DNA of 64,000 nt from Mya arenaria (taxonomy: Eukaryota; Mollusca; Bivalvia; Myida; Myidae): positions 4,456,713 to 4,520,712 of the forward strand of contig NC_069124.1 of assembly GCF_026914265.1 (NCBI RefSeq), read 5' to 3'. The notes below the pieces were generated by a model. The model saw only the letters and a program-made list of their open reading frames with translations, was not told where the DNA came from and searched no databases. The translations under genes were made by a program, and so were the position numbers. Shown here in pieces: positions 11,388 through 39,373 of this stretch (position 1 is the first letter of the stretch; every line of letters begins with the position of its first letter).

Positions 11388-11393
11388 TTTATT
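11388..11393 (-). terminator. Polyadenylation hexamer overlapping a stop codon
   Basis: On the minus strand the stop TAA (11394-11392) is followed by TAAAAC, so AATAAA begins inside the stop codon. If used, the 3' UTR would be only about 10-30 nt. I saw no other AATAAA on this strand down to about 10.9 kb, although an ATTAAA lies near 10843. Confidence 0.5.
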
Positions 11394-12548
11394 ATACAGA
11401 GCTTTCCGTGCTTGATGTACGGTTCATCATTCTCTGGATGGCGGACAGCGTTCGGCTTTGTTCGACGCCGGACACAGGGCGGCTTGGCAGCGGCGTATCC
11501 ATCTCGTGGCAATAAACGCGCTGAATGTAGTCGAGGTTGTCAGATTGTAGCATGATGGGCGTGTCACCCCGACCCAGCTGGATCTCTATTGGCGTAGAAG
11601 TGGTCGTTTCCGGGAGCGACAGGGATCCGTTAGAGGCACTCGTGTCAGTTGGCGGCCTTAGCGGCTTCCGTTCTTCATCTTTGCGGCGGCGCTTCCGGCG
11701 CGTTTTGCCCGTCTTTGACGGAGATTTTGTTGGCGTAGATTTTGTAGGAGATTTTGGTAGCTTCTCTGGAGCGGTCCTAGGGGATAGCGCCGGAAGCCTC
11801 ACGGCGGCTAGGGGAATCTTCCTTGCCGGAGTCCCGACATACTCAGGCAAATTTACAGCTAACATTTCTGGGGCAGAATTTTCAACAATCGCACCGTTGT
11901 TTTTATCAACGGATGGTGTAGACAGCGCCCTGCCGTGCAGTGATTTTGCATTGAATGTTGTTTTAGTGTTTTTATCAGACTCTTCGTTTAGCAATAAACT
12001 TTTACTGTTGGTGACATCTGGATTGACGGTATTGAAGTGTGACCCAGCCGCTGGAACAGAAACATGAAATGGTTTATATATATCCTTTGCATGGTCACAA
12101 GTATAAACTCAAGCGAGGTAATTCAGTCGGTACCCTAGGTGCATTTTCTCAAAGTACCTCAAAATGGCCACAAGTAAATATAAGGTAACAACTATAACCC
12201 ATCAATGGTCATTTAACGATGATTAGGAATTTATTTTAGTCAGACAAATTAGTTGTGTGAGTTGTCCAGCATCCTCTGCCAATTCTGCCATCATTGTTTA
12301 TGAAATTAAAATTTACCTTATTAATGATAATAACTCAAGTAAATGTTTACCCCCGTTGGGAATGATTGCGGCCGATACGCGATACCGCTCCTTCCGGTAT
12401 CGCAGCCAACAACAGGCGGCGGTAATGGCGAGGGCAACAAGGAGCAGCAACACGAGCACCACAACCGCTATGAAGGCCGGCGGCGGAATGGACAACACTG
12501 TGTCGTCCTGAGACTTCCGGGGTGCAGGCGTCGTTGGCTCGATGTAGT
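11392..12548 (-). other. Transmembrane/tail cassette 2 (distal)
   Basis: Exon 12548-12351 encodes a Pro/Thr-rich stalk, a hydrophobic helix (FIAVVVLVLLLLVALAITAA), two cysteines and a basic stop-transfer (RYRKERYR). It ends in phase 1 and joins exon 12050-11392 to form an Ala codon. The tail has IPLAAVRLPAL, a dense basic cluster (RRKRRRK) and LQSDNLDYI, then TP before the C-terminus. The first and third motifs recur in the proximal cassette (24006-25032), so the two cassettes are paralogous. The basic cluster resembles a nuclear-localisation signal, but that is only a resemblance. Confidence 0.85.
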
Positions 12549-15500
12549 CTGGAGAAATATAACTTTAAATATAAAGATCAAAGGTGTTTTTGTTGGTAGT
12601 AAACTAGTTTTTGTTTTATACCGGTTTCTCAAACGGTGTATATGTTGTGACATTTTCACTAAAACGAAAGCCTTAGGCATTATTTCTGAATTTATTCAAT
12701 AGCCCGTTTACATGCAGAATAATGCCGTTGAAGCGGTACACAAAACCATGCATTTGTTACTTCAAACGAAACTTTCGAAACCACCGAAACCCTTGATACC
12801 AAAACTGAAACTAGTTTGGTATCAACAAAAACGCTCTTAATAAAAGTTCAGGGGAGAATACTGTTATTCAGGAAACTTTTGAACTAGTCACCCATGCTAA
12901 AATGTTTGAAACTGTTAAAGGGAAGTAATACAATATATTTCATTTTAAACAAAATCAAGTAGTTATCTCCTATTATTAATCATACCGCATCTAGGGTCGG
13001 TGCCGTTCCAGCCGGTGCCGTCCGTGGAACAGAGGCGGAAGCCGCCGCCCACTAGCTCGTACCCTGAGTCGCACGTGTAGTTGACCGCCATCTCCCCGTG
13101 CATGAGCACATAACCGCCGTTTATAATAGCTTTGGGCGGGTCGCAGACTGAAAAACGGCATTTGAAATGTTTAGATCAGCACATAAATAATTGAAATAAT
13201 CGAAACTTTATATTCATACTTAATATGCTTAAACATCCGGATACTTAAAACAAAGAGGGCACGTTAACTCTTTCCAAAGCTATAAATCTGCTATGAAAAT
13301 GTACATTCTTACCACAGAAGGGGTTCGGGAGGTCCCAGTCACCGTCCGTGCCACATAAAGTGACGGTGGTCGAATTGGTGCTGTAGCCCGTCACACACCG
13401 GAAGCTGGCAGACGTAACAAGGCCGTCCGTGCTTAAGGTCACACTGCCGCTTGGTGGGTCGTACTTCGTGGAACATAAGACTGAATAATATCGAGTAACG
13501 CATTAACACATCATGTTGTTAGGCAACGTTCACAGTGGCGTGATTATAGGAGCTCAACTCCATCCAACCCGAATTCCCTTTCTTACATGTCATAAAATGA
13601 AGGAAAAAAAAGGTTATGGTATGTCACAAACGGGAATTTGTGCTTGATGGACTGTTTCGACTTATGAGTTCAGCTGCTATCTTCAAGCCACTGTGGCATC
13701 GTGGTAGTACATGCAACGCTTGTCAACTGGTTTGGGTAGAACTCCGTGAACTAAGTTGATGCTGTGTTGGTATTTGTAGAGCTGTCTGAATTTGTTTCGA
13801 AGATCTTTAAACATTTTTAATATTTAGTTTCGGGCGTTAATCAAACGAAAAAGATTTACAACTGTAAACCGGTTATGGATGACATTACTACTTACCACAA
13901 ATAGGCTTTTGGTGGTTCCACACTCCCGTGGATGTACACGTGTGCACGTGCTCTCCAGACAACGTGTAGTTCAAGGCGCACGCATATAATGCACGTGTGG
14001 AACTACCGTTTGTGCTTTTGACAACCGTCAGCTCTGGTGTTGTAGTTATTGTATCGCATGAAGCTGAAACGAAATAATATTCTGAAGTTCAAAGTGTACA
14101 TACGGAAAAATATCTACAAAAACGAACATTGACTCAATCGGTGAGTTTGCAACATTTCCCGCTGTCGCAGAAGTTCTAAATAAAGAGTTTGAAAGAACTA
14201 ACCATCGTTTCTTTTAAAACTATAAACTTAAATCTGATAAGGTTAATGGTTTTATGTCGTTGTTGAAAAGCAGTCTTACTGCATGAAGGATCCACATCCT
14301 CCCAGCCACTAGCATCATCAAGGCAACGCCGCTGGGTTAGGCCGGAAATGCTGTAACCAAGGGCGCATCCGTAGTTTGCCACCTGGAAGCCGGAAGTCTC
14401 CGTGATGTACATACTACCGTGCAGTGGCGCACCCGGTGAGTTACATTCTGAATGCAAATAAAATGTACTTTGTACAATGGAATCCAAATTTGATAAATAT
14501 TAGAAACTCCAGAATTTGGGGCCTGGATTAGCATGCAAGATATACGACCAGACAAAAAAGAAGGTAATAATAGTCCGCAAACTTCACGCCGCTAGGCCGC
14601 TTACTTCACGCCGCTAGGTCGCTAACTTCACGCCGCTAAGCCGCTAGGCGGCTAACTTCACGTACATAAGGTCTTCTTAAACAAACCTGGTATGCCGGTG
14701 ACAAAGGTTTAGGACCAAACTCTCTACAGCAAAGGTCCATTATACATGGAGCTTATCTTAGTGCATAATTAATCAACATACTGCATGTGGGTGAGGGGTT
14801 GCTCCATTGACCAGCTGAAGTGCACGTAGCGGTCCGCTGTCCACTCAGGTAATAATCGGCATCACAGGCGAATGTCGCCATCGTCACCAGCGTGTTTGAG
14901 GTCAACGACACGTTACCGCTTGCCGGGCTTGAAAGTGTAGGACAGGAAACTGCAAAAAACACAATTTCTTAGAATGTATATTTACTAATACTAATCCGAC
15001 ATGTTTTTTCTATATATTTAGACTAGTTCAACAGATAGGAAAATTCAGAATAACCATTCTAGTTTTTTTAATTCCCTAAAATATTTCTTATATTGTAACA
15101 CATAGTTATGACCAAAACATTAAATTCTCACTATTTTTTCTCAATTTAATGTAATGTAACAACATTTGCAACAATATCAACATCAAAACAAGGACGTACC
15201 ACACTGTGGCGGACTAAAGTTCCACGTCCCGTCTCCACGGCACGTTATAGTCACGTGACCGTTCAACGTATAACCTTGTATACAGGTAAATGACGCCGAC
15301 GTTTCCACGCCGTCAGTATCGAGAATCACGGCGCCGCCACTTGGGATTGAGATCGTCAAGCATGTTGCTGAGGAAAATAATATATGAATATGATTGACCA
15401 TTGTATGTTACACGTTAACTGTTTGATTTATTGATCGGTTAATTGATTGATTTCTTTCACTGATTGATCAATCGAAATATAGTCTATTACATTTCGTTAA

Positions 15501-18500
15501 GCAAGAAAAAAATAGACAATCATATAATAATTTTGTAAATGAATCGTCACGATGATCATGATGATGATCATCAAACACCTACTGCATTCAGGGTCAGCTC
15601 CGCTCCAACCGGAACCGTCATTTGCGCATACACGCAGATGGTCGCCTTGCAACGAGTATCCTACGCCGCACGTGTAAGTCGCGTGGGAGTCGTTTGCCGT
15701 CATTGATCCGTGCTGTGGCACCGTCGGGGAGTTACAATCTACATTAAAATGAAATCGTGCTTGTACGTCAAAGTTATGTCTTATCTAATAACTGATAAAA
15801 ATATCCAGCTGTAGGAAATACTCTAGAACGGGTGTAAATAATCGTCGAAGAGGTCAAGGTCACACTCACATTACTAGCAACCGCTGCCAATTGGGAAAGT
15901 GGCTATTGAAATTAAAATACAAATTGTATGAGGGTGTTATTTACGTCATCAACATATGTGTTCTTACAGCAAGATGGCGTTTCCAGGTCCCATGATCCGT
16001 CTACTTGACACACCCTCTGTCTCGCCCCCGCCAGAGTGTAGCCCAGAGCGCACGCGTACTTCGCCAGGGTGGCGTAACCCGTGGACGCCAGGTCAACAGT
16101 CCCGCTGTCCGGGGTTAGCAGCGGATGGCACATGGCTTTCGAACGAAAAGTAAGGGGAAAACCGTGAAATGTGGAAAAATGATTTAGTTTTGTTTTTGAA
16201 AATGGACACACATCTAATTTCGATGGAATTTTAGACACGAAAACAGTAGCAAATCTGCTACAAAAACAAATATCCAGTACATACAACATGTGGGTGGTGT
16301 CTCCCAGGCGCCGCCACTGCTGCTGCAGTACGTCTTGCTTATACCGGACATGGTGTAACCCTTTTCGCACGTGAACAGTGCAAACGTCTGTGTGCCCGTT
16401 GAATTCAATGTGTAGGACCCGCCATTGGGGGCTGCCAGGGGGCTGCATTGCGCTGTAAAGCAGTGAAGTGATCTCATAGAGGTCATATTAATGTAAATAA
16501 GTTTTGGTCTATCTGAGGAGATCGAAGCACTTTAAAACTGATATATTCATCAACACAACTAGATGTACACGGCAACTATCATGAGTCTATAAAATTCTAT
16601 TGACTGTGATTTCATTTTTTGGTGTTCTCTTTTGCGGTGCTTTAATGGATGCAAATTATATCTAAAAATGTATGGTTACTGCAAACTGGATCGGTGTCGC
16701 TCCATCCGGTCCCGGCAACGCTACAAGTGCGGATTATGTGCCCTTGAAGCGCATACCCGACGTCGCACGTGTAGTTAGCTGTTTTTCCGTCAGACACCAT
16801 GGTCCCGTGCAGTGGGGTAGCGGGCACCTCGCACTCTGTGTGAAATCAAATAATTAATTGAAAGTTACTATGCAAACTTTATCTACTATAAGTGGCTAGT
16901 TCACATTTTTATCGCTGTTGTTATAGTTGTTGGTGTTGTTCTATTCGAAATTAAGTATCTCTTCATAGTTATTTTATAATTTGGATTATTTTGATAACCT
17001 ACAGATAACCAGTCAGATAAAACATAACCATGCTCATAAAAAATGCATTCGTTTGCCTGCGTACCACATGTGGGTGTCAATCCGTCCCATACGCCTGTTG
17101 TGAGGCACACACGCGTTGCCGCGCCTTTCAGCGTATATCCGGTCGCGCACGAGTAAGTGACAACGCTCGTGACTCCGTCAGTGGTCAGGTCCACAGATCC
17201 ACTTGCTGGGGTCCCAGGATTAGAACAATATGCTGGAAAACGATCAAAGGAGTTCAGCTAATACATATGATCAATAATCAGCTTAATGTGTATTGCTATT
17301 TGTACAGCGGGGACTTATCGGTCCAGCCAATCCCATGTAAAATCCCCGCCCTGCGGAAACAAACTGCTGGTATAATCCCCGCCAAATGCCCCCGGACTCC
17401 AGGGACATCCTAGGTAAGGCTCATTTCCCAATCACGGCCCATTTCCCCCGCTAATACCCGAGACCCCCCCCCCCCCCCCCCCGGACCGGGGGTGTGGGAG
17501 CGTGGTTACAATTGACTGGTGCATAAATATATTACAAATCATGAAGGAGAAGAAGGAGTAATCTTTGATGATTGTACAGTTTTGGCAGGTATAGTATTAT
17601 AATAGGTCGCCCTTCATCTGTTGACCCCAAACTAACCAATGAAAATACGATACGGCAATGCGTAATAATGATAATGACTAGAAACGAGCGTTTGACGACG
17701 ACGACGCGGGACAAAGAAACGTCATGCAGACGACAGAAAGACATTCTGAACAGTGAAAACGCTTCCCGGAGAAAAAAAAACACAACAACATGGACTTACC
17801 ACAAGTTGGTGCCAAGGGTTGCCACGAAGTGTCAACCTGGCAGACCCGGATGTTGGACCCCTTCAGCGAGTATCCCACCACACACGTGTAATTTGCCGTG
17901 GTTGTCTGTCCGTCTGTAGACTGCGCAACACTGCCGCCCGTCGGATTGGAAAGGCTGGTGCAGCGCTCTGAAAAAAATAGATTTGTAAAAACCGTTACAA
18001 AGAATTTTCCAGAGGCAACATGGCTACACAGAGGCAACATGGCTACACAGAAGCAATATGGCTGCAAAGGCAACATGGCTACATCTATTTCACTATTTTG
18101 CACGAAATGTCGGTATGTCACCTGATAAACGATACATACTTTGCTACCAAGAGAACACAAGTTATAAACTTGACGGAAATCTAGCGACAACGTTACGGAT
18201 AAGTGGTTATAACGTTCCGCGTCTCGAGCGCAAATACCGGAAGTGTTGTTTCACGATTTCGACTCTAATGCAATCTACACCACACTTGGGATAAGTTAGT
18301 TATTGTGACATATATTTTCACACTGATGTGAATTATGTGCAATCTACCGGAAGTAGACACACTCTTACTTGAACAGACCCTGAACCTTGACTCACCGCAC
18401 GTGGGATCTGTCGCCTCCCAACCCGTTCCGTCATCCATGCAGCGTCTTGTGCCTAAAGCTGATATGACGTAGCCGAGATTGCACGTGTAGTTGGCATATT

Positions 18501-21500
18501 GACCAAAAGAGTTGTCATCAATTTCCACGCTACCTTGAAGCGGAGCAGATGGCGCCACACATCCTGTGAATAAACTGAGCCTTAGATGTGTTTTCATAAC
18601 AATATCATACATTATAATCACGTGGGGATGTGGCTCAGTGGTAGAGCGTTCGCTTTGCATGTGAAAGGCCCCGGGTTCGATCCCCGGCATCTCCAAATCA
18701 TTTTTTAGTCGCAAGTGTTTCTCTCTTATTCTTGCGGAATATGGTAAGGCGGCGTCCATCCAATGAAAGACGTAAAAAATCCTTTAAAATGCTCAGCGAT
18801 ATTGTGACAACTTAAAGCTGTGTTGTGAAACCTGTCCTCATCGACCTCATCGTTAGATAAACTTAAAAATTTACAAAATTGTTCAGTGCATCTATTCAAT
18901 ATAGATAAGGGGATACGGCTCGGTTGTAGACCGTTTGCCCTGGATGTGAAAGACTCCACGTTCCATCACCGGCATCTCCGGCATATTTCTTTTCTGAAAG
19001 ACCTAAGTCGACGATATATATTTTCATAACTATACAAAATTTTAAAATGTTTCCCGAGATTGGTACATATATTTTACTTCTTTCCTTTACTTTGAAAAAC
19101 TTAATTGAATGCGAAAATCAGATTTCCTTTTACCCGTGTTTTTATATTATTTGTAACACTTTCTAAAGGCCTTACTGCACACAGGCTCGTTGTATCTCCA
19201 TAAACCTGAAGTAAGGCACGTGATAGTTTCCGTTCCGCTCAGGAAGTAACCAGGGAGACAGCTAAACGTGGCCTTAGTGGTCATGGTATCCGTCGTCATG
19301 GTAACGTCGCCACTCGTTGGGACGTTCAGGATCGGGCATGTTTCTGAATAGTCAATGAAGGGTGTGTGTCAAACTATACTACAATCTATAATCTATTTAC
19401 GTTTTACTAACACACTATTGATTATTTGTATACATAACTAAATGAAATATTTAAGACCTATCTGAATGTAGTACAAGCTTCTAAGACTCTTCTACGCTTA
19501 TAAAACTCCACTCGGGTCTGATCCGGGCTCGTCGATGTTTTAGTAAAAAGCATAGTTGTTTTTCTTTAAAAAAGACTTAACTGAAAAGAAATAATTGTTA
19601 TCCCGACATGTAGTAAAATAAGCGAGTGATGGGGTCAAGGCTATAAATGGTGGCCAGTCAGCAAAAAAACTATTAAAGTCACGCTAATCACGACTTATCT
19701 AAATATAGCGAACAAGAAAATGCAGCGACATTGACCTTTAAAAGTGAGAACAGAACACATTTTATTGCAGCAAGGCAAACCATTGTTGGGAAATGCCAAT
19801 GTTGTTTCCCCAACATATCCTCTCGCTTACCACAAACCGGCTCACTGAAGTCCCAGGATCCATCACTTCTACAGGTGATGTTGCCCTGGCCATTCAGGGT
19901 ATACCCCACCGTACAGGTGAAGGACGCGGTTGTCTCAAGGCCATCCGTTGACAGAGAAACCATCCTTCCGACAGCAGTTGAAATTGTCTGACAGGGCGCT
20001 GTAAAAATGAACACCGTTAAAAATACTTTCTTAAAGAATAAAGGGATAAATGTGCACATAGAGCGAGAGAGAGAGACGCAAAATAATTGGAGATGCCGGG
20101 GATCGAACCCGGGGCCTTTCACATGCAAAGCGAACGCTCTAACACTGAGCCACACCCCCACACATAACAATGATTTACGGATCACGGATTTACAAAATAT
20201 TATTATTATCTATTATTTTTGCTCAGTTATCTGAAAAAATAACAGTGTTGCAACATGTCTGTTACGAGAAATGAGAACTTTGAATAGTGCAGACAACTTG
20301 TATAATTATATGACACCACTACATCTATACATTAATTTGATACATACTGCATTCAGGGTCTGTACCGATCCAACCGGAGCCGTCATTTGCGCAAACGCGC
20401 ACTCGGTCGCCTTCCAGTGAGTAGCCAACGTCACAGATGTACGTCGCGTGAGAGCCGTTAGCCGTCATGAAGCTGTGTTGGGGCATCGGAGGGGAATTGC
20501 AAGCTGGTAAAAGCACATTTCAACATATACATAATCAAGCAAGGAATTCTATATTAGTAAAAAGTCAATTAAACATTGAATTTCACATTGAGTATTTTTT
20601 AATCAAATTAATAAAGAGCTCTAAATATGAAACAGGAGTGTATATAATTTACGGCCAATATGAGGCTACAGTGTTGAAAACTAACATAGGTGTAGCTTAT
20701 GTGGAATGCATAAAATTATAACATAACTGTTCTGTGTCTTGTTTTTAAACGAATTATTACTGCAATTGTATTATTTAACCAGCTTACAACATGTGGGTGC
20801 TGTCAGGTCCCATGAGCCGTCATCCCGGCAGGTGCGAGTTTCCGTGCCCTGCAAGCTGTACCCAACGTCACAGATATAAGTCGCTGACGTCACGAGTGCA
20901 GTTGTCGACAACGTCACGTCCCCACTGCCAGGTGGCGGAAGAACGTCACACAGAGCTGAAGTTAGTGAGCAGTTACAGTGAAAGAGTTTATGTATTGCCG
21001 CAAATATATGACTGCGGTTGTCTTGTTTTGTGTAGCTTACATTGGATGGCAGTATTGTTTCAAATACGAAACGACTAATTTAAATTTCCAATTCTTTTAT
21101 TTTTTAGCAATAACGTCTATATATGAAAACAGCATACTGCAAGTCGGTAAGGTATCCCAAACGCCCCCGTTACAGTATACTCTGACGTCACCAGACAACG
21201 TGTAGCCTACGTCACAGCTAACGTCAGAGAACGTCTGCACACCGTTGGCTCCCAGCACGTGGTTTATGCCTGCTTGAGCAGCGGGCGGACCGCAGCTCTC
21301 TATAAAGCAATTTCCATTTTTATTATATTATTTCTACTTAATAAAAAGAAAAAGTAACATGTTTCCATACAAATTCTTCACCAGCGTTGAATGATAGTGC
21401 AACATTTTTACACAATACAAGCAAATTAAAATGTGCATACTATCTTAAAACTACTCTAATGTATCAAATGAATAAGGCTGTCCTAAAATACATCAATTTA

Positions 21501-25032: not shown

Positions 25033-28000
25033 CTGGGGGGGAGGGAGTAAGGCAACAAGGTTTAAATAAAAGTGTATACTGTAAAAAAAAATTCAAGTAA
25101 AAGTCGATACAATTCAGTAAAATTAAACGGATTCAAAAAGCTGCACTCCATGTACATTATATAAAAATCCTAATTAGCGCAATTATACTTATTCTACATG
25201 ATTTTTCATTCAATTGAGAATAAAAATGGTGTAATTGTTTATGTATTTGCGCTAATTAGGTACTGGTGTATATAGACTACTTAAATTCAATGAACTTACA
25301 TGAGGGAGCACGAGGACAGGAAAATCCCGAAAACGGGGCCATAATTTCAACTGCAAAAATCGCGTCAGCCTAATTAGCGCAAATCACCTGAAACAGTTTT
25401 AAGGTTTGGGAAACACTGCAAAAATGCGATGACTTGAAGGACCTGATGTTTCTTACCGCACGTTGGGGCGAGGCCGCTCCATCCGGTGCCGTCACTTTGG
25501 CAGGTGCGTGTTTCAGAACCAACCAGAACGTAATTGACGTTGCACGTGTAGCTCACAATAGCAAAATCGGCAGTAACGTTGAAACCTCCGTTGGTCACCA
25601 GAGGTGGTGATGAACAAACTGAAAGCGAAGCAATCATTAACAAGCTTCTTTCATGACGGATAAGTGTCAAGATGGCGCATGCATTTCTAGATCAACAGAT
25701 CTTGATATGGCGAAAGTATGTATGCCGAACTCGTGTTTTACCACGGTACGATTTTTTTGAAAACGTACGCAGCAGGGCATCATAAATTATCATTTAAAAT
25801 TTGACAGTGAAAGTAAGATTTATTCTAAACATACACACCGCAGTTCGGACTCGGCAGGTCCCACGTTCCGTCACCGCCACAGGTCAAGGTTGCTGTTGAC
25901 GTCAACGTGTAGCCAGTCACGCACGAGAACGTTGCCGTGGTTGCCAGGCCCGAGCTCGACAGTGTTACAGAGCCGCTGTTAGGGTCGATGAGCGTGTCGC
26001 ATGTAACTTAAATTTAATCAAATGTAACATTTTCATTAGTTTTAATACTTTTTTTTACAATTAATTTGTTAAAAGAATACTATAGCACCTGTACGTGTTA
26101 GTCCTCTCATAGCGGAAGGATACATTTTTGTTTCAACCGACGTCTGATCAAGATCAATAGACAAGATAAAATCGATATTAACGAATGTAGTTTTTTACAT
26201 ATGAAGAACACTTTTATACCACATGTAGGCGGGGCGTTATTCCAAGTGCCATCTGACTGACAGACGAGCTCGCTGTTGCCTTCTAAGGTCGTTCCAACGT
26301 TACATGTAAACGTCACTTTAGTGTTGGTAGAGCTCGTACTCAGACTATACGTCCCGGCCGTCGGGGTTGAGATGGTCTGGCACACAACTGTTGCAATACG
26401 TGTGAATGTAATGCACATTGCAGAATGAAAAACATAATGAACACAAATATGGCATACAACTCAGGTGAGCTATCCGTGTAATAGTTTCCTCATACGCATT
26501 CTTTAGACAATTTACTTGATGGAAATAATTGTTTTGTTTTATACAGTATGACTCCATAACATTGCATGTGACCTTTCCGAAAATACGGACCACTGACATA
26601 TAGTTATACGATAATATTCTATTTCAAAATTAAGAATTTCACTGGTGACTTAAACAGATAAAATGTTTAACATTATGGTAGGATTATGTTGTTGTGTTGA
26701 TCACAAAAAAATTGGTCTATTGATAAATTCACAAAAAGCAAAAAGACTTACCACAGATGGGGTCGGCGCCCTGCCATCCGGAGCCGTCCGCCATACAGAG
26801 CCTGCTGGCCAGTCCCGACAACGAGTAGCCGACGAGACAGCTGTACGTGGCGGTGGTTCCGCCGGTACTGTCGGACACCGACACCGCCCCATTACTCGGC
26901 GTCGAGGGGAAGTTGCACTCTGCAGAGATAACATGATATTGTAACTTGCTTTGACGTTCCATGTAGGAATGAAACTTAGTATGCATTTGGTATAAACTAC
27001 CCAACAATACCAAGCCGGCATGTCAGGTCATGTATTATTACCTTGTGTACGTTTACCTTTGAATGTAGAACTAGTATGATGATGAGCAAATTGAAACTTA
27101 AACGTATATTTTGATACACATGCAAATAATACATACTGCACGTGGGTGATGTGTTGTCCCAACTTCCGGTTGTCTGGCACGTGAGCAGATAGTTTCCGCT
27201 GATATAATATCCGGTCTGGCACGCGTAAGTCGCAGTGGTAACGCCTCCTGTCGTACTGACGGTGACAGTACCGCTTCTTGGATCTGACAGGTCCGGGCAT
27301 TTCGCTGAAAATTAATATACTTATAAGCATCATAACAGAAATACTAACATTACTCACAGTCAGGTCATCACTATTGACATTTTTTCACGGAAACTGGGTT
27401 GTTAGAATGGACCTGTCGTTGTACATGGCGGGCAATCATTGGAGCCACAACATTTTGTTATGTGTTGAAAATGCTCCAACGCGTCTTCCATTATAGTGCC
27501 AATGATTGGAATATGGTTGTAAACAGTGAGTATGGTTTCTTATTTTTCATTTTTAAAGGTTTATACGAGTAAATTAAAAAAAAAATGAAGAATGTAGTTC
27601 CACATAGTTCCTGTAGTCAGAAATGGCTATTTTAACTTTTATTCAGAACTTTTATATTTAGAACAACTCACAGCCATTCTTATGTGAAACTACATTCTCC
27701 AATTTTATTTTTGTTTCGTATATCCTCTAAAAATTAAAAATAAGAAACCATACTCACTGTTTACATCCATATTCCTATCATTGGCATTATAACGGAACAC
27801 GCATTGGAGTATTTTAAACACATAACAAAATGTTATGGCTCCTATGATTGCCCGCCGTGTTGTATGGGCGTGGAACTCCATAATTTTAGGTTGGAATGAT
27901 ATATAGTGATGCACCATCCTTGGAATGTCGTCAAAACACAGTTTTCTTAGACAGTGGTGAATCATTTCCGGCCCGATCAATCCTACCCCCATCCCCTTAC

Positions 28001-31000
28001 CGCACATAGGCGCCGCGAAGTTCCACGTGCCGTCGCTGCGACAGGCGATTGTTGCGGCACCGTTGAGCGTATATCCAGAGTTGCACGTGTAATCGGCCTG
28101 CGTGTTTATGCCGTCGGTGCTCATGCTTACACTTCCACCGGTAGGGTAGTTCAAGGTTGCACACACACCTGACACAATAAAATATGTTAAAACATTTGTT
28201 TTGCCGAGTTCATACTACACCTATATATGTTCATAGATATGTCGACAAATCTGCAGGGGCCGTGTCATAAGTCTAAGCAAAAGTTTGTTTAAAATGTTAT
28301 GTTTATTTACATTATATGGGACAATGAGAAAACAATATTGCTGAAAATTGAACCACAAAGGACAAAATAGTGCTAATTTCAACAGCATTACACGTTTTAA
28401 TCACGTACTGCAAGAGGGGTTACTTCCGGACCAGCCGCTGCTGTCTGTGCCGCACGTGCGCGAAGAAAGTCCGGCGAGGGAGTATCCCAGGTGACAGGAG
28501 TAGCTGGCCGTGGAGCCGTCATGTGTCATGTCGCCATTTGCAGGCGTCAGCGGGGCCTGGCATGCTAGGAATGAAAGGAAAAACTAATCAAAATCAAGAT
28601 GGTCTTTTCGAAAGACTCTCTCTCATTCCAAAGTGGCAGATATAGAAACGTTTCATTTCAAAAGTTATACTTGTATGAAAAAATACTGCTTGTAACAAAG
28701 GTTAGTACTGCCTGTAACAAAGGTTAGTACTGCCTGTAACAAAGGTTAGTACTGCCTGTAACAAACGTAAGTACTGGTTGTAACAAAGGTAAGTACTGGT
28801 TGTAACAAAGGTTAGTACTGCTTGTAACAAGGGTAAGTATTGCTTATAACAAAGAAAAGTACTGCTTGTAACAATGGTAAGTACTGCTTGTAACAAAGGT
28901 AAGTACTGCTTGTAACAAGGGTAAGGTAACAAAGGTAAGTACTGCTTGTAACAATGGTAAGTACTGCTTGTAACAAAGGTAAGTACTGCTTGTAACAAGG
29001 GTAAGTACTGCCTGTAACAAAGGTAAGTACTGCCTGTAACAAAGGTAAGTACTGCTTGTAACAATGGTAAGTACTGCTTGTAACAAAGGTTAGTACTGCT
29101 TGTAACAAGGGTAAGTATTGCTTATAACAAAGAAAAGTACTGCTTGTAACAATGGTAAGTACTGCTTGTAACAAAGGTAAGTACTGCTTGTAACAAGGGT
29201 AAGTACTGCTTGTAACAAGGGTCAGTACTGCTTGTAACAAGGGTCAGTACTGCTTGTAACATGGGTAAGTACTGCTTGTAACAAGGGTAAGTACTGCTTG
29301 TAACATGGGTAAGTACTGCTTGTAACAAGGGTAAGTACTGCTTGTAACAAGGGTAAGTACTGCTTGTAACATGGGTAAGTACTGCTTGTAACAAGGGTCA
29401 GTACTGCTTGTAACAAGGGTCAGTACTGCTTGTAACATGGGTAAGTACTGCTTGTAACATGGGTAAGTACTGCTTGTAACAAGGGTCAGTACTGCTTGTA
29501 ACAAGGGTCAGTACTGCTTGTAACAAGGGTCAGTACTGCTTGTAACAAGGGTCAGTACTGCTTGTAACAAGGGTAAGTACTGCTTGGAACAAGGGTAAGT
29601 ACTGCTTGTTACAAAGGTAAGTTATGCTTGTAACAAAGGTAAGTCGTCATAAAAAGTTCAAAGGAGATTTCTTTTGTACATAAACTTTACAATATAAGAC
29701 ATAGTTTTTGCCAAACAGTTTTGTACATTTTGTACATGTTATTGTCATTTTCTATAACAGTTGTATTGCTACTAAAGAAACATACTGCACGTGGGAGCTA
29801 CGAGGCTCCAAGTACCGTCCGAGTTACACAGTCTGATCGTGTTTCCGTTGAGGTTATATCCGGACGCGCATGCGTATGTCGCACTTGTTTTCGAACCGGA
29901 ACTCGTCAAAGCAACCGTGCCGCTGGAGGGATCCGTCAGTGTAGGGCATTGTACTTTTGGAAAGTGAAAAATAAAATGTCAAAATTGAACAGAGTTATCT
30001 TTTGTTAACATAGACTGAGGTCTGATCTGGAATCGGATAGTTCTTTTTGTATAGTAAATATATGGTAAATTCAACCATGAAAAAATCGCATCAAATAACA
30101 ACTTCAAATCTCACATTCAGTTACTATGTATCAATCCTTTGACAAAAGTATGTCAAACAAACAACCTAAAAGAGGCATTACCACACTTTGGCTGTACGTT
30201 ATTCCACGAACCAGACGACTCGCATGCGATGGACGACGCGCCGTCAAGTGAGTAACCGACGTTACAAGTATACGTTGCTGACGTTACCGTTCCTGACGTC
30301 ACCATTGTGTAAGATCCTCCGGTGACGGTGGTCAACGTCTGGCACAATGCTGGAAAATACAAACAATATCAATATACGTATTATGATAATAAGCATACAG
30401 CTTGTTTTGGGGGTCAGTACATCGACAGCAACCACGGTACTTTTTTCCATTACACTCCGTGCATACGCAACGAAACATGGCGCAGAAGTGTATCGGGGAT
30501 ACTAGACGATGAGGTCAGTATAACGTACGAGCGTGCATGACAGTAAAATAGTGTGATAAATAACTAGAGGGTAGGGTGATACAGTGTAGGTGTCCACCTC
30601 TCACCAAAGACGACAAGGGCTCGAGTCCCACTAGCCACAATTTCTCATGTCCTCTTGTAACGGACACCAGCACTGTTGGGATTTAAAACTATCAAAGAAA
30701 GTCACGAAGGGGCTAAAGAAATCAATATAAACTAAATCAAAATGTTACCAGGAAATTAAGATATAAAATACATGTATATAACTTACTGCAAGTTGGATTA
30801 GCGCCGCTCCAACCAGAACCGTCCGTCTGACAGTTGCGCGTCGACGGGCCGTTGATGGTGTAGCCCTGTGTGCAGGTGTAAGTGGCCACAGTACCGTTAG
30901 ACCTCACAGTTCCGCTGGCAGGCGCGGACGGGGCATTACACGCTGTGTATTGCAACGTATAAAGTCATGCGATGCAAACAAATGTATCTTAAATCTAAAA

Positions 31001-34000
31001 TACACACTTTACACACTTTCCTACTCAAATAGCCATTTATCTGTGGACAAAACGAGCAATAAGTGTATTTGATACAGTTACAGCAAAAAAGTTATAAACA
31101 ATTTTATTAGAAAATTGAAATAAAGACATTGCTGTTATTTACTGCATGAAGGCATGACGCCTGTCCAGGAGCCGTCTAGCTGACAGGTGCGCGTGTCGTC
31201 GCCTTCTAACGTGTACCCGCTGCTGCACGCGTACGTTGCCGTGGTGACGCTACCGTCTGACGTCGACGTCAACGTCCCACTGGCTGGGTTAGTGAGCACG
31301 TCACATATAACTAGAAATCACGAGGACACTCACGTTTAAAACATTAATATGAAAAAAAATCAATTAAAAAGAGGTTAACTCTCACATGTATAAAATTAAA
31401 CCAGTAACAGAACCCATATGGTGTTGACTTGTATATCACCGTTAGAGGTCAACGAATCTAAGGAATGAATTGCGGGGTTGATGTCATTATTGGACCCGGT
31501 ATAAACACAATTAGGCTGGTCAAAGTGTGTGGAGTCCGAAGAAATCCACACGTACTTTGACCAGCCCAATTGCGTTCAAATCCCCGATAATGACATCAAC
31601 CCCGCAATTCATTACTTATATTTACACAAAAAGTTCTTTATTTCATTCAAGAATTGTTATAAAAATAATTTATTTCAGTTAAGAAAACCTTTCAGCAACC
31701 CTCTCTTACCCATTCTGTAAATAGAACGACCTGACTGTAACCGGAAACATTTTTTTCAAATGCCGTCACAATAACGCGGGAAAAGATCAACCACTTGAAA
31801 TCACTTTAAAACGTAAAATCGATACCCTTATGGCAACAATACATTTAAAATATAATAAATTAACACTTTCTAAAATGTTGATTTAAATTAACGGGACCTG
31901 CTGACACAATAGTTTTCATCTATGTTGTTATGCGATGAATTGCGATCCGAAATTATCCGAAGATGTTGCGTTCATCGATTGATAAACGCAATTGCCGAAA
32001 GGCAGTTAATTTAAGGAAGGGAAGTTGAGATGTTGATATAAACATATGTATACATACTACAACACCAGTCTACACTTGATAGCAAATAGCAACATATTGA
32101 GTTTGATTTCCTTAACATTTTATTCATTTTCAATATACGCAAATTGAACTAAGACCAAGTCATTATTGAAAATGAACACAAAATTGAGGAAATTAAACTG
32201 CGTTTACCGCCATTGTAACGTTTATACATACATGTGTATTTGATAAGATTAATAAGATTATTGAATTTACGAGGTCGATCGTTTGATGAAACGAGCCCTC
32301 TTTCAGTATAGTATCTTAGTTGTAACGTCACACGTGCCAAATACTTGGTTTTTGTATAGTCTAAGTTGGTTGTGTTGAACACTCGCACATATATGTAGCA
32401 TAACGAAACATATGACACTAAGATCATTTCCATTTATAACTAAGATCAACGGCGATCTTTATGGAAACAGACTCATGGCTCTCAACCAATCAGATTCGCG
32501 AAAGCGCGACAAGTTCATGGTATTAGTACTCATTAATGAAACCATTCATTCGTCATGAACCTCAGTGCTTGTAAAAATGTTCTGTCTTCCAACTGAATAA
32601 GAATATATCGCTATCCTGGCACCAAATGTAATGACCGCATACATACCACATTGAGGTTGAAGTCCATTCCATTGCCCCGAAGATGAGCACGTGAGCTGTA
32701 ACGTTCCGTTCAGCGTGTATCCCTTCGCGCACGTGAAACTCACGGACGTCATTGTGTTGTTTGTTGACATCACTGACGTCTGTCCGGTGACGATTTGCAG
32801 TGTATCGCATTTCACTTGAAAAAATATTGTTTTTACAGAAAAACTAAAACACTAGACAGTAACAATGAAGTAAAATCATTTCAGAGTTACAGTGAATCTC
32901 TTAAGTAGAAGCTCACCTGTCAAATGTGCTTTTAACAACTCTAACAGGCCGCATTATAAAATTTTATCTTCCTATGTTAAAAAACGTACGGTAATAAACC
33001 CATATAGACGTACCACACCCAGGGTCTGCATCCTCCCATGCGTTACCGTCTATACATGCACGTGTAGCGAGCCCCGACAACGTATACCCCAGCTGACACG
33101 TGTACGTCGCCGTACTGCCGTCCGTGGATACCGTCACAGCACCGTTTGCAGGGACTGGCGGGCTCGCACAATCTAGATTGTGATTATGTTTTTAAAATTG
33201 CCCTTTTTTAATTTTCCTTTCCCCATATAGTTTTGAAAATAAAAGACATACATACAAAGCAATCATATCATTTGGAAAAATAATACATTAGTTCTCTTTG
33301 AGTCAGTTTTTTTTTTTTTAATTTCAATTTGAGTGTGATTCAAAATGTGCATAAATGATTTCTAAAATACAGAGAAAAAACTCATACTGCAGGAAGGCTT
33401 TGATCCAGACCAGGTGTCATCTGCTTGGCATACCCTCGTGTCATCTCCCCACAATGTGTAGTTGTCTTGACACAAATAAACTGCTGACGTCACCGCCCCT
33501 GTGGTTGTCACAGTAACATTGCCTCGTTCTGGGCCCTCCACTGCTGGGCATGTGGCTAGATATTGAAATAGATCAATGTATTTCATGAACGGGTTACTCA
33601 TATATTACCTCTATATAAAAAGTTTCTTTACCAGTAAGATCTTCCTCATAGATATTGTTTTAAACCAACAAGTTTACGACTAATCGTTAGTGATTATTTA
33701 TTAGGCTTGTGAACCGTCTTTCAAAAACAATAAGAAGTTTATATTTGATAAAAAAGTATAACCAAACGCTACTTACGGCAGGTCTCTGTAAAGAGTATGT
33801 GAACAGACTTATTAAAATTTGCATTTAAATTAATACCAATGCAGTGAATACAAATGCAAAACAGTCATCCACTAACGCCCAAATAACAATAATAGAGAGG
33901 AGCCCATGTAGATCCCTGTTGAACACCGCGAAGCAGCGAATGGAACGAGAATTGATTACGCCCAAATCTTAAAATGAAGTTTGATTAATTAAATGACATA

Positions 34001-37000
34001 ATAGGTTGTTCATGTACACTTCGTTCTAATGGATAACTCTGTGTGAATAGCGAATAACAGAATAAACACTATCAAATGCTTTGGTAAGATCAAATTAGCA
34101 TTGCTCAACATTTCACCTAACAATGCATGCAAGTAATGTTGAAGAACTAAATATTGATCAAAACAGGAATAAATAATATAGTTTTTTTTTTATTTCACTT
34201 GCAGCTTTACTGATGGTAAGATTCTAGTAGATTCTAAATAACACTGAAAACCAAAACATGCTACATTTTGATACAAATGGTTGTACAAAGGTTGTATCTT
34301 ACTACGCACATCAGATATTTAAAAAAATAACGGAGTTAGAATTGCAAATTCCGCTTTTAGGTTGCCTGATGATTTGACAGATAAGTGGATCACCTTTGAT
34401 TATCTTAAATGAAAATTTGCTGAAACGGATAAAGTGTGTACCTTTTGCTGCGCCAAATTCCAGTTTTGAACCAAGATTATTACCGCTTGCTGTCTGAGCG
34501 AAGTCTGTCGGAATCTGGTTTGGTCGACAATACATTGGGGCCACGGACGCTGCGCTGCTATCATCCGATATTGCCTGTATTGACGAATAATGGTAGGTCA
34601 AGTTTTCGGAATATTTATATGTTCCTCTGAGATTAAAGTTAAGCATTTGACAGTGCTTGTTTAACGGGAAGTAGGAATTATTCAGAAGATGAAATGTTAG
34701 ATATCGTAGTCTTTAACAGCATTCGGACATTTTGAAAGGGCATAAAAATAAAAGGGTTTTATTTGATGGTTATCGGACCATTATACATGCAAGCTTCAAG
34801 CTGCCTTCAGAATTTTGTTGTGATCATTTTGTTTTGTGCATGCATATAACTTGTCCATTTTTTCACGTTTTATTGCCAAAATAATCCTTTAATTATGATC
34901 AACCTTTTAAAACTGAAAATTGATTTTTTTTTAAATAATTAGTCTCAAACTCATTTGAGAATGGCGTACCATGCACGTAAATTTGTAGAAATCGACATTG
35001 TCAATCAAGGCGTCATTGTCGTTGCCGTTAAACAACATCACGTAGTTTGTGTCCCCATCGGAAACTGTGTTCACACACCATACTGTGTCCGACTCTGTAG
35101 TATAGATATTAAACAACCTTATAAATAGGAAACATTAAAGAGGTGTCACATGGGAATATTTCTTTATTAAACATTCAAAGTTTGTTTGCCAACTTTGTTG
35201 GTGATTCACAAGCTTCCTCAGGACTTATACGAGACAACACTAGTTCAAATACAATTAGTGTCTGGAATATATGTTACTTACGTGAATATGAGACTCTGGT
35301 TGAGCATGCGGTGTAATCAAAGGTAAATTGTTGCGTATCTGAACAGACGCCAAGATCGGAAGTTGTCAGATCGCATGACGTATCACCTGATGACGTAGTA
35401 TACGTGTAGCCATAGCGACCAAGGAGCGGCCAGGGGCAGTCGACCTTTGCTTGTTGTTCAGTTCCTGAATCAATTAAGGCTTAAGACTAGTACAAATCTA
35501 CATACAATCAATTATTTGAAGAGCTCTTCAATTAGTTATAGACCTCTTCAATCGACACAATGCCGATAGCGATATGGTTACATCTACAGTGTCAGGTGAC
35601 CCCTAAGTAAGGGCCCTCCGACAAGTACGTAGAAGCAGACGATAATAATACAGAGGCAATTCTTGACGATGAGAAAAATGCATGGAACGTGGTAAACATT
35701 GCAATAAAAGCAAGTATATCATCCAATAAGTATATTATTATTATTACTTGAATGCAGTGTATGATTCATGTAGAAATAGTTTTATGTCTAAACTTTGAAA
35801 TGATTTCTTCCTAAATAGCTTCGGAATTTTGTAACAGTTAAAACTAAGGGAAATTAAACGTGTATTAATTTCCTTTACGAAAGTCAACAAAAACGACGTT
35901 TGTTTAGCTCAAATGGTAAAACGCAATTAATTTCGCTGTTTTTCTTCCTTTCTCCATTTAGAATCACCTGCTTTATATAAGTTTAATGGATTATTATTAT
36001 TGATATAAGTTCCTTAATGATTCTCTCAATGTATTAATATCCATATTAAATGAAATGCAAAACTGTTCTAACCAGCAACAAAGAAGTTAGAAATGATCAT
36101 AGTCATAACAAATGCACAAGTTTATACTTTGACTTGTGGCATTTACGAAGGTGATTTTATTTTATCTATACGTATACACTTTCTGTGACCTTAAGTTATA
36201 TGATATTAGATATTTCATCTACATTTAAAAAAAATGTAACTCAACTGAGTTGTCATCTCCTCTAATAGTATGTCCAAACAAACTTTCTCTAGTCCTTGAG
36301 GATAATATTTTGTATTAAACATATAGAAAAGAGCGTGATTACACTATGGCTTGACCCCGTTACATCCCCATGTGTGACTTTAACAAAATTTTGAATTCAA
36401 CCAGAGTAGTTTCCTAGCTCTGACTATTGGAGATGGTATAAGTGCAGAATGTCGGAGGTAATGGTGTATAGCAACGGGCAACTGATGAGCCCCGCCTAAT
36501 CTGGACACTGATTGGTCAGTCAGGTATCGAGAAACTAGTTTGATCCAATCGAGTTAATTATATTAACATGAATTGAACTTAGAGATCTCTCCAAATCCGA
36601 AGTTTGTGCAGAGAGCACCGCAATTCAATTGTACATGTCTCCAAATCAACTGAATTAGGGCAATTTATCATCCATTTAATTAGAGACCACTCTTATTCAA
36701 TAAACCGTGATAGAGTCGATTTATAAATTTGGCCGTGTTGTCATATTACTGCTACCTGATTTTAAATGAGCTGTCACTGCCTTGGAATGCTTGTGTTAAC
36801 GATACTAGAACTATAACTTAAACATAGTACTGGTGTTGGTATATGTCAGTCGTGTCATCTAGTCCTACCTATCCGTACAAGCATCTGGTACTCTCCACCG
36901 GAAGACCCCAAGTTTGTTGAGCAGATTGTTCCCTGGTCCGTGAGGCTGTTCACTGGGTATATGAACAGCCGCTCGTGATTTAAGTTCGTCTCTATTCCTG

Positions 37001-38760
37001 CAACAGAGATACATAAATGTGGATGCATTTGTGGTTGGAATGTGCGGGAGGAAGGGGACGTGTAGTCGTTTTAACGATTGTCTTTTAAACGAAATCGTTT
37101 GAACTTTGAACGAAATGTTAAGATAGAATAGAGTATAATGAAAAAACATGCATGCTTCCGTAGCTTTGTATAATCCGTTCTTGTGCATACCGCCGTTGAT
37201 ACGAGGCATATAGAAAATGTAATGCATTCGTGATAAAACCCGTATTTGTTCGTACTATGGTTAATGTAGTACATGTACGAGGCGGAGGTCACGGAGGTAA
37301 TGGTGATACACAGGTAGGCGTAGTACTGTTGGCTGAACAGGGGAAACGTCTGATTGGTTCTGAAATGTACATGTACACAGGGTGTGTCAGACACTTACAA
37401 CAAAGTATGCAAAATGTGGGTCGAAAAAGAAAGAATTTCAAAGGTATATTGTCAAACGAAGCGTGAAATTAATATGGTAGAACTTCAACTCAAACAAAGC
37501 AGGTGTTTAAGAATGAGTATGGGCCATAATGTGGGTTAGAAGTTGAGAAAGTGCTTGAACAAACAATTAATGCAGAAGTAATTCGAAAAACTATAAAGCA
37601 GTTTCTGTATAAAACGTTAAAGCATTGAAAATAAGATCGATGTAAACCTGTCCTAAAGGGCTCATTAGTGTTGACTTAGTTTTTGTTTGGTAATTTGTTA
37701 AATGTTTAAAAAACTTTTATACAAATAATTGGTATATAACCACTTACACCATCATTATGACACCAGAGGACGAGAACGCGCTGGCGGACAGACATTCCCA
37801 CCTCGAGTACACATCACCAGAACCGGCTGTCGGCTCGAAAGCCCAGCCTTCCATGGTGGTCGTGAAGAATGTGAGGGCACCCCGGGAGCTGTCGTAAAAC
37901 TGGGAGTCTCGGAACTCCGTTGGCCACATGCATGCGCCATCACCTGCAAATACATGTAGACGACAAGTTGACTTTTGTTCGATTGGATCTAGTATTTTAA
38001 ATATTGTATGCTGACCCCATATCGAATATAGATCAACGTAAAGTCAGAGATGAAAGGATGTGATGAATGGTTGGGATGTGCGGTAAGCATCCCCGAATGT
38101 GGATGTATTATGTATGGTGGCTGAGTTCTGCCGCTTCGTGCTGGTGTGTTATGAGAGGTATCGGTGCCCAAGATTAATTACACACTTGATCAGGTCCCTA
38201 AATGTGTTCAATTATCTCGTTCAGACAGTCGTTCCTGGTGCTTTATAGGTTTCAAACCAGCTTCACATGACTCGTATGTCATTTTTATTCGTTTGTAAAC
38301 TACGCACTTAAAATTGCTAATCTCAATAGTGATTACTATTTATAACTTTTCATAATTTTAAATTTAATGTACTAGCTGAAGACCTTGCATGGTAGCGTAA
38401 AAGACTTTTCTGACTTAATCTTAGATTATAAAGTTCAAGTCCGTACAGTTAAATAAAAGTAAATTGTTTACAATTATGTGGTGAACGTATCTTTTAAACA
38501 ATCCCATATTAAATTCCTGTTTTGAATCTTTCGATTATATAACTGGGTTTTTTTACATCAAGAACCTCAATTTCAAACACAAAGTCTAAATATATGATAA
38601 TTTATATAATAATAATCTGAACCATTAACTTATAATATTTATAAGTTTACACAAATATTTGTTAAGGCTTGTTGTATGAAATATACTCACCTTTTCTAAA
38701 TAAATGCACTCCTAGAAACAGAACAATTGAAACTAATCCATTCTTATTTGAAATCAACAT
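24006..38760 (-). CDS. Secreted-entry CCP receptor with cysteine-rich N-terminus, 14 CCPs, transmembrane helix and tail
   Basis: Exons in order: 38760-38691 (ATG, signal peptide, core VSIVLFLGVHLF), 37943-37748, 37359-37256, 36997-36869, 35464-35282, 35094-34970, 34574-34442, microexon 33785-33777, CCPs 33555-33388, 33172-33014, 32814-32647, 31310-31143, 30942-30787, 30349-30182, 29953-29786, 28564-28409, 28168-28001, 27304-27137, 26919-26752, 26387-26220, 26006-25839, 25618-25457, then 25032-24787 and 24583-24006. Phases agree throughout. The N-terminal region opens with C.WP and has CPWPLLGRYGYTYT with regularly spaced cysteines. It resembles the invertebrate DUF7042/7043/7044 group, an attribution from memory of the pattern. 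Type I membrane protein by topology; likely extracellular recognition, ligand unknown. The transcript may also skip the last two exons and join the distal block (11392-23343). Confidence 0.85.
25169..25382. repeat. Three copies of a 14-mer, one inverted
   Basis: cctaattagcgcaa occurs at 25169-25182 and 25369-25382 and inverted at 25247-25260, in the intron between the last proximal CCP exon (25618-25457) and the transmembrane exon (25032-24787). The 25169/25247 pair could be the ends of a small (about 90 bp) inverted-repeat element. Confidence 0.7.
27420..27875. mobile_element. Second palindromic MITE-like element, about 455 bp
   Basis: The left arm (from about 27420: tacatggcgggcaatcattgg, then gtgagtatggtttcttattt and gaatgtagttccacata) is repeated inverted in the right arm, ending at gattgcccgccgtgttgta. 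The arms are about 190 bases with a centre near 27645. It has no open frame of note and is unrelated in sequence to the element at 21917-22398. It lies in the intron between CCP exons 28168-28001 and 27304-27137; exact ends are uncertain. Confidence 0.75.
28684..29645. repeat. Minisatellite, 22-bp unit, about 43 copies
   Basis: The unit is made of gtaagtactgcttgtaaca plus a variable agg/tgg, with blocks of identical variants. It lies in the intron between CCP exons 29953-29786 and 28564-28409. Almost every unit carries GTAAGT on the plus strand, antisense to the gene. Long open frames in all phases are a by-product of a stop-free unit. Confidence 0.97.
31460..32035. repeat. Dispersed repeat, copy 1 (with internal hairpin)
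   Basis: Starts aaggaatgaattgcgggg and ends cgaaaggcagttaatttaag. It shares long stretches (tgatgtcattat, cacaataacgcgggaaaag, gatcaaccacttgaaatcac) with 61680-62045. This copy also holds the inverse of its own first about 80 bases (31544-31612), making a hairpin absent from the other copy. Intronic, between CCP exons 32814-32647 and 31310-31143. Confidence 0.85.
33777..33785 (-). CDS. 9-nt microexon of the long CCP gene
   Basis: On the minus strand TTTACAG|agacctgcc|GTAAGT. It is phase 1-1 and adds three residues (E-T-C before a P completed by the next exon), including a cysteine, between the N-terminal region and the first CCP. The support is its exact counterpart in the plus-strand paralogue (44726-44734): same length, phase and Cys position. 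Too short for ordinary gene prediction. Confidence 0.75.
34442..38760 (-). other. Cysteine-rich N-terminal region, seven exons (detail)
   Basis: Exon sizes in order are 70, 196, 104, 129, 183, 125 and 133 nt. Recognisable pieces: signal peptide; C.WP...FRDSQFYDS with RGALTFFTTT; a YYAYLCITIT strand with YMYYINH; CSTNLGSSGGEYQ; CPWPLLGRYGYTYT with CDLTTSDLGVCSDTQQ; WCVNTVSDGD with LFNG; and MYCRPNQIPT. The plus-strand gene at 41669-44464 has the matching exons (70, 184, 107, 132, 186, 110, 133 nt) in identical phases. Acceptors chosen by this match: 35094 rather than the AG before 35117, and donor at 37256 giving YYINH before GTACGA. Confidence 0.8.
35465..36868. other. Intron, no further feature seen
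   Basis: The intron between exons 36997-36869 and 35464-35282 is AT-rich; I find no exon, RNA gene or clear repeat in it. Confidence 0.55.
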
Positions 38761-39250: not shown

Positions 39251-39274
39251 ATCAATCGATCAATCGATCAATCG

Positions 39275-39373
<99 letters not shown>

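Follow-up and report, generated by a model that had tools for sequence, protein, structure and literature searches.

Two homologous 3' modules at a complement control protein receptor locus of the bivalve Mya arenaria: probably one gene with alternative last exons

Background

The human receptor CD46 (MCP), built of complement control protein (CCP, or sushi) domains, has a cytoplasmic tail that is chosen by alternative splicing while the number of CCPs stays constant, and in the immunoglobulin mu heavy chain early polyadenylation competes with splicing to a downstream 3' end, giving the secreted or the membrane form. In human CR1 (CD35), the long homologous repeat consists of seven CCPs. CR1 is described as a membrane receptor with around 30 CCPs and four long homologous repeats (PMC5845983). 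The present analysis concerns a CCP receptor locus on the minus strand of 64,000 nucleotides from the clam Mya arenaria (assembly GCF_026914265.1, contig NC_069124.1, positions 4,456,713 to 4,520,712; this whole stretch is called the window below, and positions refer to it unless stated otherwise). The locus carries two blocks of CCP exons, each with its own membrane anchor and tail, and its best-supported reading is that of one gene with two alternative 3' modules, which we consider probable.

The genome of Mya arenaria is published with 1.22 Gb in 17 scaffolds (PMC10663159). For Mercenaria, an expanded group of 14 Sushi/SCR/CCP genes is reported (PMC8905726), and several transcripts with sushi/VWA/EGF/pentraxin names are described as highly expressed in the mantle of Dreissena (PMC9210306). 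Neither this locus nor its design is named among the literature matches listed for alternative last exons (with CCP domains or with tandem or partial duplication), CCP receptors, Mya, Mactra and CR1, and no mention of 'DUF7042', the domain at the head of the protein, was found in the literature searched.

Organization of the locus

The initial annotation had placed 35 CCP exons on the minus strand, all joined in phase 1, and had regarded the distal 21 of them with their own tail as intact. All of this was borne out: a scan for phase-1 exons with AG/GT borders, a length divisible by three and the CCP cysteine pattern recovered the same 35 exons, all of them (35/35) with such borders and lengths as the scan requires, CCP exons in other phases being invisible to it. 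On the plus strand, the same scan of the window gave two CCP exons only. Each block ends in a transmembrane (TM) exon, followed by a tail exon with a stop codon; the joins of both TM and tail exons are in phase 1 as well. From d15 to d35 and on through TM2 and tail 2, the frame stays open and the borders are AG/GT. The features are, in the direction of transcription:

38691..38760, minus strand: likely signal-peptide exon (MLISNKNGLVSIVLFLGVHLFRK/G), from the start scan, with phase-1 donor AAG/GTGAGT
34437..37950, minus strand: exons of the N-terminal head including DUF7042, from Pfam and tblastn of the public model P0001
around 37950-37801, 37373-37257 and 36998-36867, minus strand: upstream three head exons, from tblastn or open reading frame spans, the 36.9-kb piece being read by eye
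around 35477-35280, 35098-34994 and 34574-34437, minus strand: downstream three head exons, from tblastn or open reading frame (ORF) spans
25457..33555, minus strand: proximal block, 14 CCP exons p01-p14, from the phase-1 CCP scan
24787..25032, minus strand: TM exon 1, clean reading, phase-1 joins
24006..24583, minus strand: tail exon 1 with stop, homologous to the tails of P0002 and P0005
23344..24005, minus strand: gap of 662 bp between the blocks, free of start-exon candidates in the start scan
12986..23343, minus strand: distal block, 21 CCP exons d15-d35, from the phase-1 CCP scan
12351..12548, minus strand: TM exon 2, clean reading, phase-1 joins
11392..12050, minus strand: tail exon 2 with stop, clean reading, C-terminus TESSV, AATAAA at 11393

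The coordinates of the head exons are tblastn or ORF spans and do not imply exact exon ends. The signal-peptide exon is the better of two start candidates in 33556-40000; the public model P0001 starts elsewhere, with MGNFYFV at 38903. DUF7042 was recognized by Pfam (PF23069, 47.8 bits with the cut-off at 27, E 1.7e-12) in a head sequence joined by hand from ORF pieces, with which a sequence search of the PDB gave no matches. The two tails are homologous to each other (BLASTP of the two sequences, E 5e-6 or 1e-5 depending on direction), matching with 46% identity over 39 positions or 29% over 133, and contain no Pfam family at E 1. The locus possesses two complete terminal exon sets with stop codons, both of which can be reached in compatible phase from common upstream exons. 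With its DUF7042 head, CCP stalk, TM segment and basic tail, it shows every feature of a group that may be called, descriptively, the DUF7042-CCP membrane receptors of bivalves.

Under the reading preferred here, the gene would encode a type I membrane protein with signal peptide, DUF7042 head, CCP stalk, TM segment and cytoplasmic tail. Its 3' part (CCPs from around p03, TM and tail) would have been duplicated in tandem long ago, so that a second complete 3' module came to lie downstream, and this distal module would later have gained an internal 9-CCP repeat. Presumably without a start of its own, it would be expressed only if the pre-mRNA extends beyond the polyadenylation region of tail 1 and d15 is joined to an upstream donor, most likely that of p14. 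Use of TM1 would yield a 14-CCP receptor with tail 1, and skipping of TM1 a 35-CCP receptor with tail 2, ending in the conserved TES[SN]V; the choice of the end would set the reach of the ectodomain together with the partners of the tail.

The same arrangement in other bivalves

In Dreissena, the gene model P0038 (2376 amino acids, aa) contains 35 Pfam Sushi stretches and ends in tail 2, its DUF7042 being barely at threshold (27.0 bits against a cut-off of 27). Its array corresponds gaplessly and one-to-one to p01-d35 of Mya (diagonal mean 0.595; at most 0.454 for other offsets from -12 to 12), and the best single Mya match lies on the diagonal for 27/35 CCPs, or for 26/35 in the reverse direction. 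Six of the eight off-diagonal CCPs (15, 16, 17, 18, 20, and 22) are situated in the first copy of a 9-CCP repeat; five of these six match the other copy of that repeat in register and CCP 18 matches p06, while the remaining two, 13 and 28, match p10 and p07. P0038 passes directly from CCP 14 to CCP 15, i.e., the counterparts of p14 and d15 are joined.

The gene models P0039 (33 CCP matches), which we infer to belong to Mercenaria mercenaria, and P0040 of Ruditapes (32) also end in tail 2. In both of them, the CCP that follows the p14-like one has its best match in d24 (next p04 and d15), and p07-p14 are present twice, with a step from G type to A type where the register of the repeats (see below) is broken. 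This description of the venerid models follows best hits, as the array alignment cannot represent duplications and puts the second p07-p14 set on d15-d23. In venerids, a third end may have come from one more duplication of p07-p14. In addition, the Ruditapes gene model P0063 (16,738-base contig) has p09-p12-like CCPs joined straight to a d35-like CCP and a tail of the tail-2 type, a join that the phase-1 design would permit, or it may be an assembly fragment.

The short form is represented by P0005, a sequence of 1218 aa on a 4551-base contig with leader, DUF7042, 13 CCPs, TM segment and tail 1, and in this respect complete. Since 4551 bases of genomic DNA would be too few for a gene with an intron per CCP, P0005 is intronless and probably a cDNA of a relative ending in tail 1; its source code 'lgn' we take to stand for assemblies of public reads. 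In Mactra antiquata, two models have consecutive locus tags and contigs of equal listed length: ACF0H5_010181 (P0002) has DUF7042, 14 CCPs and tail 1, and ACF0H5_010182 (P0042), which begins within a CCP and lacks a leader, has 20 CCPs, a TM segment and the first part of a type-2 tail.

In a tree of the last three CCPs from five species (without P0005), the proximal (seven rows) and distal (five rows) sequences are split at 100/100; both ends apparently predate the divergence of these bivalve lineages. Tail 2 terminates in TES[SN]V in all four sequences that are complete at this end, those of Mya, Dreissena, Mercenaria and Ruditapes, while P0042 and P0063 stop short of the C-terminus, and the three tail-1 sequences each have a different ending, none of them TES[SN]V.

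This conservation bears on two further explanations. Tandem repeated modules are prone to misassembly, and the two ends might represent two haplotypes or misplaced copies put in tandem by the assembly; the divergence of the tails (the 46% and 29% identities given above) is, however, too high for alleles, and the same order recurs in the Dreissena model and in the consecutive Mactra models, such that an artefact is scarcely credible. A silent relic of the duplication, which the weak acceptor of d15 might suggest for the Mya distal block, is very improbable, given that the reading frame is intact, with AG/GT borders, throughout the 21 CCP exons, TM2 and tail 2, that the whole block shares 52% identity with Dreissena and that TES[SN]V is kept in 4/4 sequences.

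The initial annotation had proposed alternative last exons on one gene, with 14 CCPs and tail 1 or 35 CCPs and tail 2 as products. The proposal is partly supported, by the Dreissena, Mercenaria and Ruditapes models, which join the blocks, and by P0005, which ends in tail 1; its own main argument, the repeat register, is weak. Concerning the products, the 35-CCP form has its counterpart in the p14-d15 join of Dreissena, whereas for Mya exactly 35 CCPs would be a prediction.

Repeat order and origin of the distal block

According to the initial annotation, the CCPs fall into three types (A, G and B) that recur in fixed order and keep their register across the TM1/tail-1 cassette. The period of three and the short G type are clear, whereas the distinction between A and B is blurred for d15, d16, d24, d25, and d33. 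Similarity at lags divisible by three exceeds that at other lags by 0.126, a contrast reached in 0/5000 shuffles (mean 0.0002, sd 0.0075, maximum 0.051). Across the blocks, the proposed register indeed scores best (0.424 versus 0.298 and 0.313 for the other two, 98 pairs each); the three best proximal matches of d15 are the A-type p07, p10, and p04. In a tree of the CCPs, which is of limited detail (6/32 inner branches starred), the B group of eight rows includes neither d15/d24 nor d33, and d16/d25 are placed on the G side.

Within the distal block, the same tree pairs d15/d24, d16/d25, d18/d27, d20/d29, d21/d30, d22/d31, and d23/d32; its pairs across the two blocks are p13/d34 and p14/d35. 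Inside the distal block, similarity is highest at lag 9 (0.515, 12 pairs; lag 7 0.285), d15-d23 and d24-d32 forming a 9-CCP repeat. Between the blocks, the best diagonal has an offset of 21, p(i) with d(i+21) (0.465, 14 pairs; runner-up 0.438), and the best proximal matches of d30, d31, d32, d34, and d35 are p09, p10, p11, p13, and p14, respectively, d33 being diverged. Because of this diagonal, the pairs in the tree and the homologous tails, we infer that the proximal 3' part, from around p03 through the tail, was copied in tandem to give the distal block, which a 9-CCP duplication later extended. P0039 and P0040 of the venerids, with 12 CCPs (by best hits) where Mya has 21, fit such a later event.

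As the distal block duplicates the proximal 3' part, an unbroken register across the TM1/tail-1 cassette is no proof of splicing, since duplication alone yields it; the venerid models, moreover, break register (G, then A) at a joined boundary. For both reasons the register was dropped as a decisive argument.

A copy that begins at around p03 would also agree with mutually exclusive 3' modules, in which p03 and d15 are alternative partners of p02 (or of some other early exon), such that the distal product has at most 23 CCPs and never contains p03-p14. A splice from p02 to d15 would rebuild the parental order and keep the register equally well, all junctions being in phase 1, and the p02 donor is good (11.4). 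The gene models of three other species, however, join p14-like to d15- or d24-like CCPs, and none of the six mapped models (0/6) joins p02 to a d15-like CCP. We regard mutually exclusive modules as unlikely and retain the single gene in which the long form includes both blocks.

How the distal end might be reached

The initial annotation had seen no start exon in the 663 bases (662 by the present count) upstream of the distal block. Between 23344 and 25456, which includes this gap, no signal-peptide-like ATG with a phase-1 donor was found, and the scan by its own criteria recovered the start exon 38760-38691 already proposed by the initial annotation. This absence is not striking in itself, because shuffled DNA mostly gives none either (start candidates in 17/200 shuffles of 662 bases and in 25/100 of 2113 bases). 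Over 12000-44000, the scan gave 15 rows, some of them overlapping; hydrophobic ATG candidates within the proximal block, at 32433/32427, 30450/30396, and 27881, are conceivable as starts for something.

These candidates could in principle serve the distal block if it were a separate gene with its own promoter and a start exon that escaped recognition (far upstream, non-classical or split). Two genes would also agree with the two public models each in Mya and Mactra and with the ends being old and diverged, like those of separate paralogues. Apart from the lack of signal-like starts in 23344-25456, however, the frame of d15 runs into a stop just upstream, with no ATG in between, the distal models start leaderless in both Mya and Mactra, and the models of Dreissena, Mercenaria and Ruditapes join the blocks. 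Two separate genes are therefore rather unlikely, and one gene with two ends is still the reading to be preferred.

Polyadenylation signals do stand between tail 1 and the distal block (AATAAA at 23715 and 23594, ATTAAA at 23809), the initial annotation having pointed out an AATAAA there. They are nevertheless weak evidence, because the motif is frequent, with 18 AATAAA in the 21,993-base span and around 0.5 expected per 662 bases; as a decisive argument, the signal was dropped on this ground.

Concerning the splice sites, the d15 acceptor is the third weakest of 39 (leave-one-out matrix), as a regulated site might be, the TM1 acceptor has the highest pyrimidine content of all 39 (0.90), and the p14 donor is good, as is that of p02. 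Taken as mixed evidence, these scores hint that tail 1 would be the default and the long form a regulated outcome. The TM1 donor at 24787 (TAG/GTACTT) is the weakest of the 37 scored, and retention of the TM1 intron may give a further, truncated tail.

Several observations weigh against one gene with two ends. The acceptors of p04 and p05, inside the proximal block, are weaker than that of d15, and by matrix score the TM1 acceptor, the 16th weakest (4.6), is only middling. For Mya, the splicing choice is predicted from DNA and from models of relatives; the tail-2 forms P0038, P0039, and P0040 are gene models, the tail-1 end is found in P0005, and in no one species were both seen as transcripts. 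P0005 lacks a counterpart of p14. Among the 31 proteins listed by a search with the p14-d15 junction as its target, no name refers to Mya and no identity exceeds 41%. In the search for relatives, candidates were proteins of up to around 2523 aa, of which those sharing most words were scored, and a complete model of the Mya long form, estimated at around 2530 aa, would just escape it. In Mya itself, P0001 and P0003 stand as separate models, and the published Mya annotations are described as having used RNA-seq from six tissues (PMC10663159, PMC11978232).

The source annotation of these two models is not stated. P0001, the 'CSMD3-like protein [Mya arenaria]', is 97% identical to the conceptual proximal protein. 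The distal model P0003 (20 CCP matches) gains its start, MSFT, only by means of a 59-base intron, the shortest intron between CCPs of this locus being 149 bases, and, as read by eye, lacks the TM2 exon and d19 as well as parts of d22 and of d27.

A long paralogue is situated on the same contig at 12284582-12341534 (loci L033-L038 and L049), with a DUF7042-type head, a single TM segment and tail matching P0004, and 123 (relaxed scan) or 114 (stricter scan) CCP-like phase-1 exons on the plus strand; the stricter scan gave none on the minus strand. It is possibly one receptor of around 7000 residues. The public models P0043, P0017, and P0004 are, by eye, pieces of it, all of them headless and the first two also without an anchor. 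As this paralogue is cut into leaderless models, leaderless CCP models of this family can be fragments of a single long gene, and P0003 has the look of a further fragment of this kind; this softens the weight of the separate Mya models.

Implications

Somewhat short of an even chance, in our estimate, is the wider view that this is a conserved two-ended bivalve receptor gene, predating the split of Mya, Dreissena, Mactra and the venerids, whose switch couples the length of the ectodomain (14 or 35 CCPs) to the tail (without or with C-terminal TES[SN]V), as a molecular ruler with matched signalling ends. TES[SN]V resembles a class I PDZ ligand. At around 3.5 nm per CCP, 14 versus 35 CCPs would perhaps correspond to about 50 versus 120 nm. 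A role of the receptor in complement is not indicated by sushi domains alone.

What alternative last exons exchange is usually a tail or an anchor, whereas here the swap would add 21 extracellular domains too, and a single splicing decision would set reach and signalling together. A switch that stems from duplication of a whole 3' module, with stalk exons all in phase 1, would mean that a modular gene can gain it in one step. For this clam family, some of the public models probably contain systematic errors (split genes, a lost membrane anchor) that would bear on sushi gene counts and on expression work in bivalves.

Neighbouring genes and the rest of the Mya genome

A search of the Mya genome found tail 1 (E cut-off 0.001) and tail 2 (cut-off 10) at this locus only, within the limits of a loose first-pass search, and thus yielded no second two-ended locus for comparison. 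DUF7042 gave 17 matches, eight of them over the cut-off, including the present locus (L016). A scan of the 17 loci (around 3.2 kb each) yielded one credible CCP exon, in L024, and hits in L017, L022, and L025 that look like other cysteine repeats; flanks of this size would miss most CCP exons, L016 itself giving none. Wider neighbourhoods were scanned at 11.465-11.555 Mb, 12.24-12.34 Mb (holding L024) and over 10 kb at 4.52 Mb. No CCP exon was found in the 90 kb of the first, which holds L017 and L022, nor in the 10 kb of the last. DUF7042-type exons occur at several places over around 50 kb of this contig (11471093-11519947), without a CCP exon in 90 kb.

A divergent neighbour is situated on the plus strand at 42773-48048, with a weak head-type exon (42773-42991, E 4e-4), two CCP exons (44894-45064 and 45405-45566), a TM segment (46833-46988) and a matched tail (47722-47961). 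Its TM segment and tail match Ruditapes P0062; P0062 and P0040 are each on a 221,581-base contig, and the head-to-head gene pair may be conserved in Ruditapes.

The window contains large minisatellites at 53221-56525, 57671-60693, 39605-41530, 45822-46714, and 28684-29644, with units of 43, 20, 40, 29, and 22 bases, respectively. The one with 43-base units is 97% matched over 77 copies; one minisatellite lies between the two divergent genes and another inside the p07-p08 intron. At its beginning (2-703, plus strand), the window holds the last part of a cadherin-like gene, with a cadherin domain (E 3e-6, 28.0 bits) just under the cut-off of 28.8 and a weak Cadherin_C_2 match.

Comparison with described systems

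CSMD3 and SVEP1, the names under which P0001 and P0003 are found in their source, have many CCP domains in common with the clam gene. As judged on the relatives P0005 and P0038, the further domains of the SVEP1 and CSMD proteins are lacking, none of CUB, VWA, EGF and pentraxin being detected in them by Pfam at E 0.1, and the two names are misleading. In the accessible parts of PMC10663159 and PMC11978232, CSMD and SVEP1 occur 0 times. P0038 itself bears a sushi/VWA/EGF/pentraxin name; the accessible part of PMC9210306 does not state whether it belongs to the mantle transcripts.

Like CR1, the clam gene would encode a membrane receptor with a long CCP stalk organized in repeats. The 7-CCP unit of CR1 and the vertebrate regulators of complement activation is not found in its distal block, which has periods of 3 and 9 (lag 7 0.285, lag 9 0.515), and the clam gene differs from CR1 in its repeats of three and nine CCPs, its DUF7042 head and its two anchor/tail ends. 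With CD46, it shares an alternative tail on a CCP receptor, whereas the choice of the tail in the clam would also add 21 CCPs. Unlike those of immunoglobulin mu, both ends of the clam gene are membrane-anchored and homologous to each other, having arisen, it would appear, from duplication of a whole 3' module.

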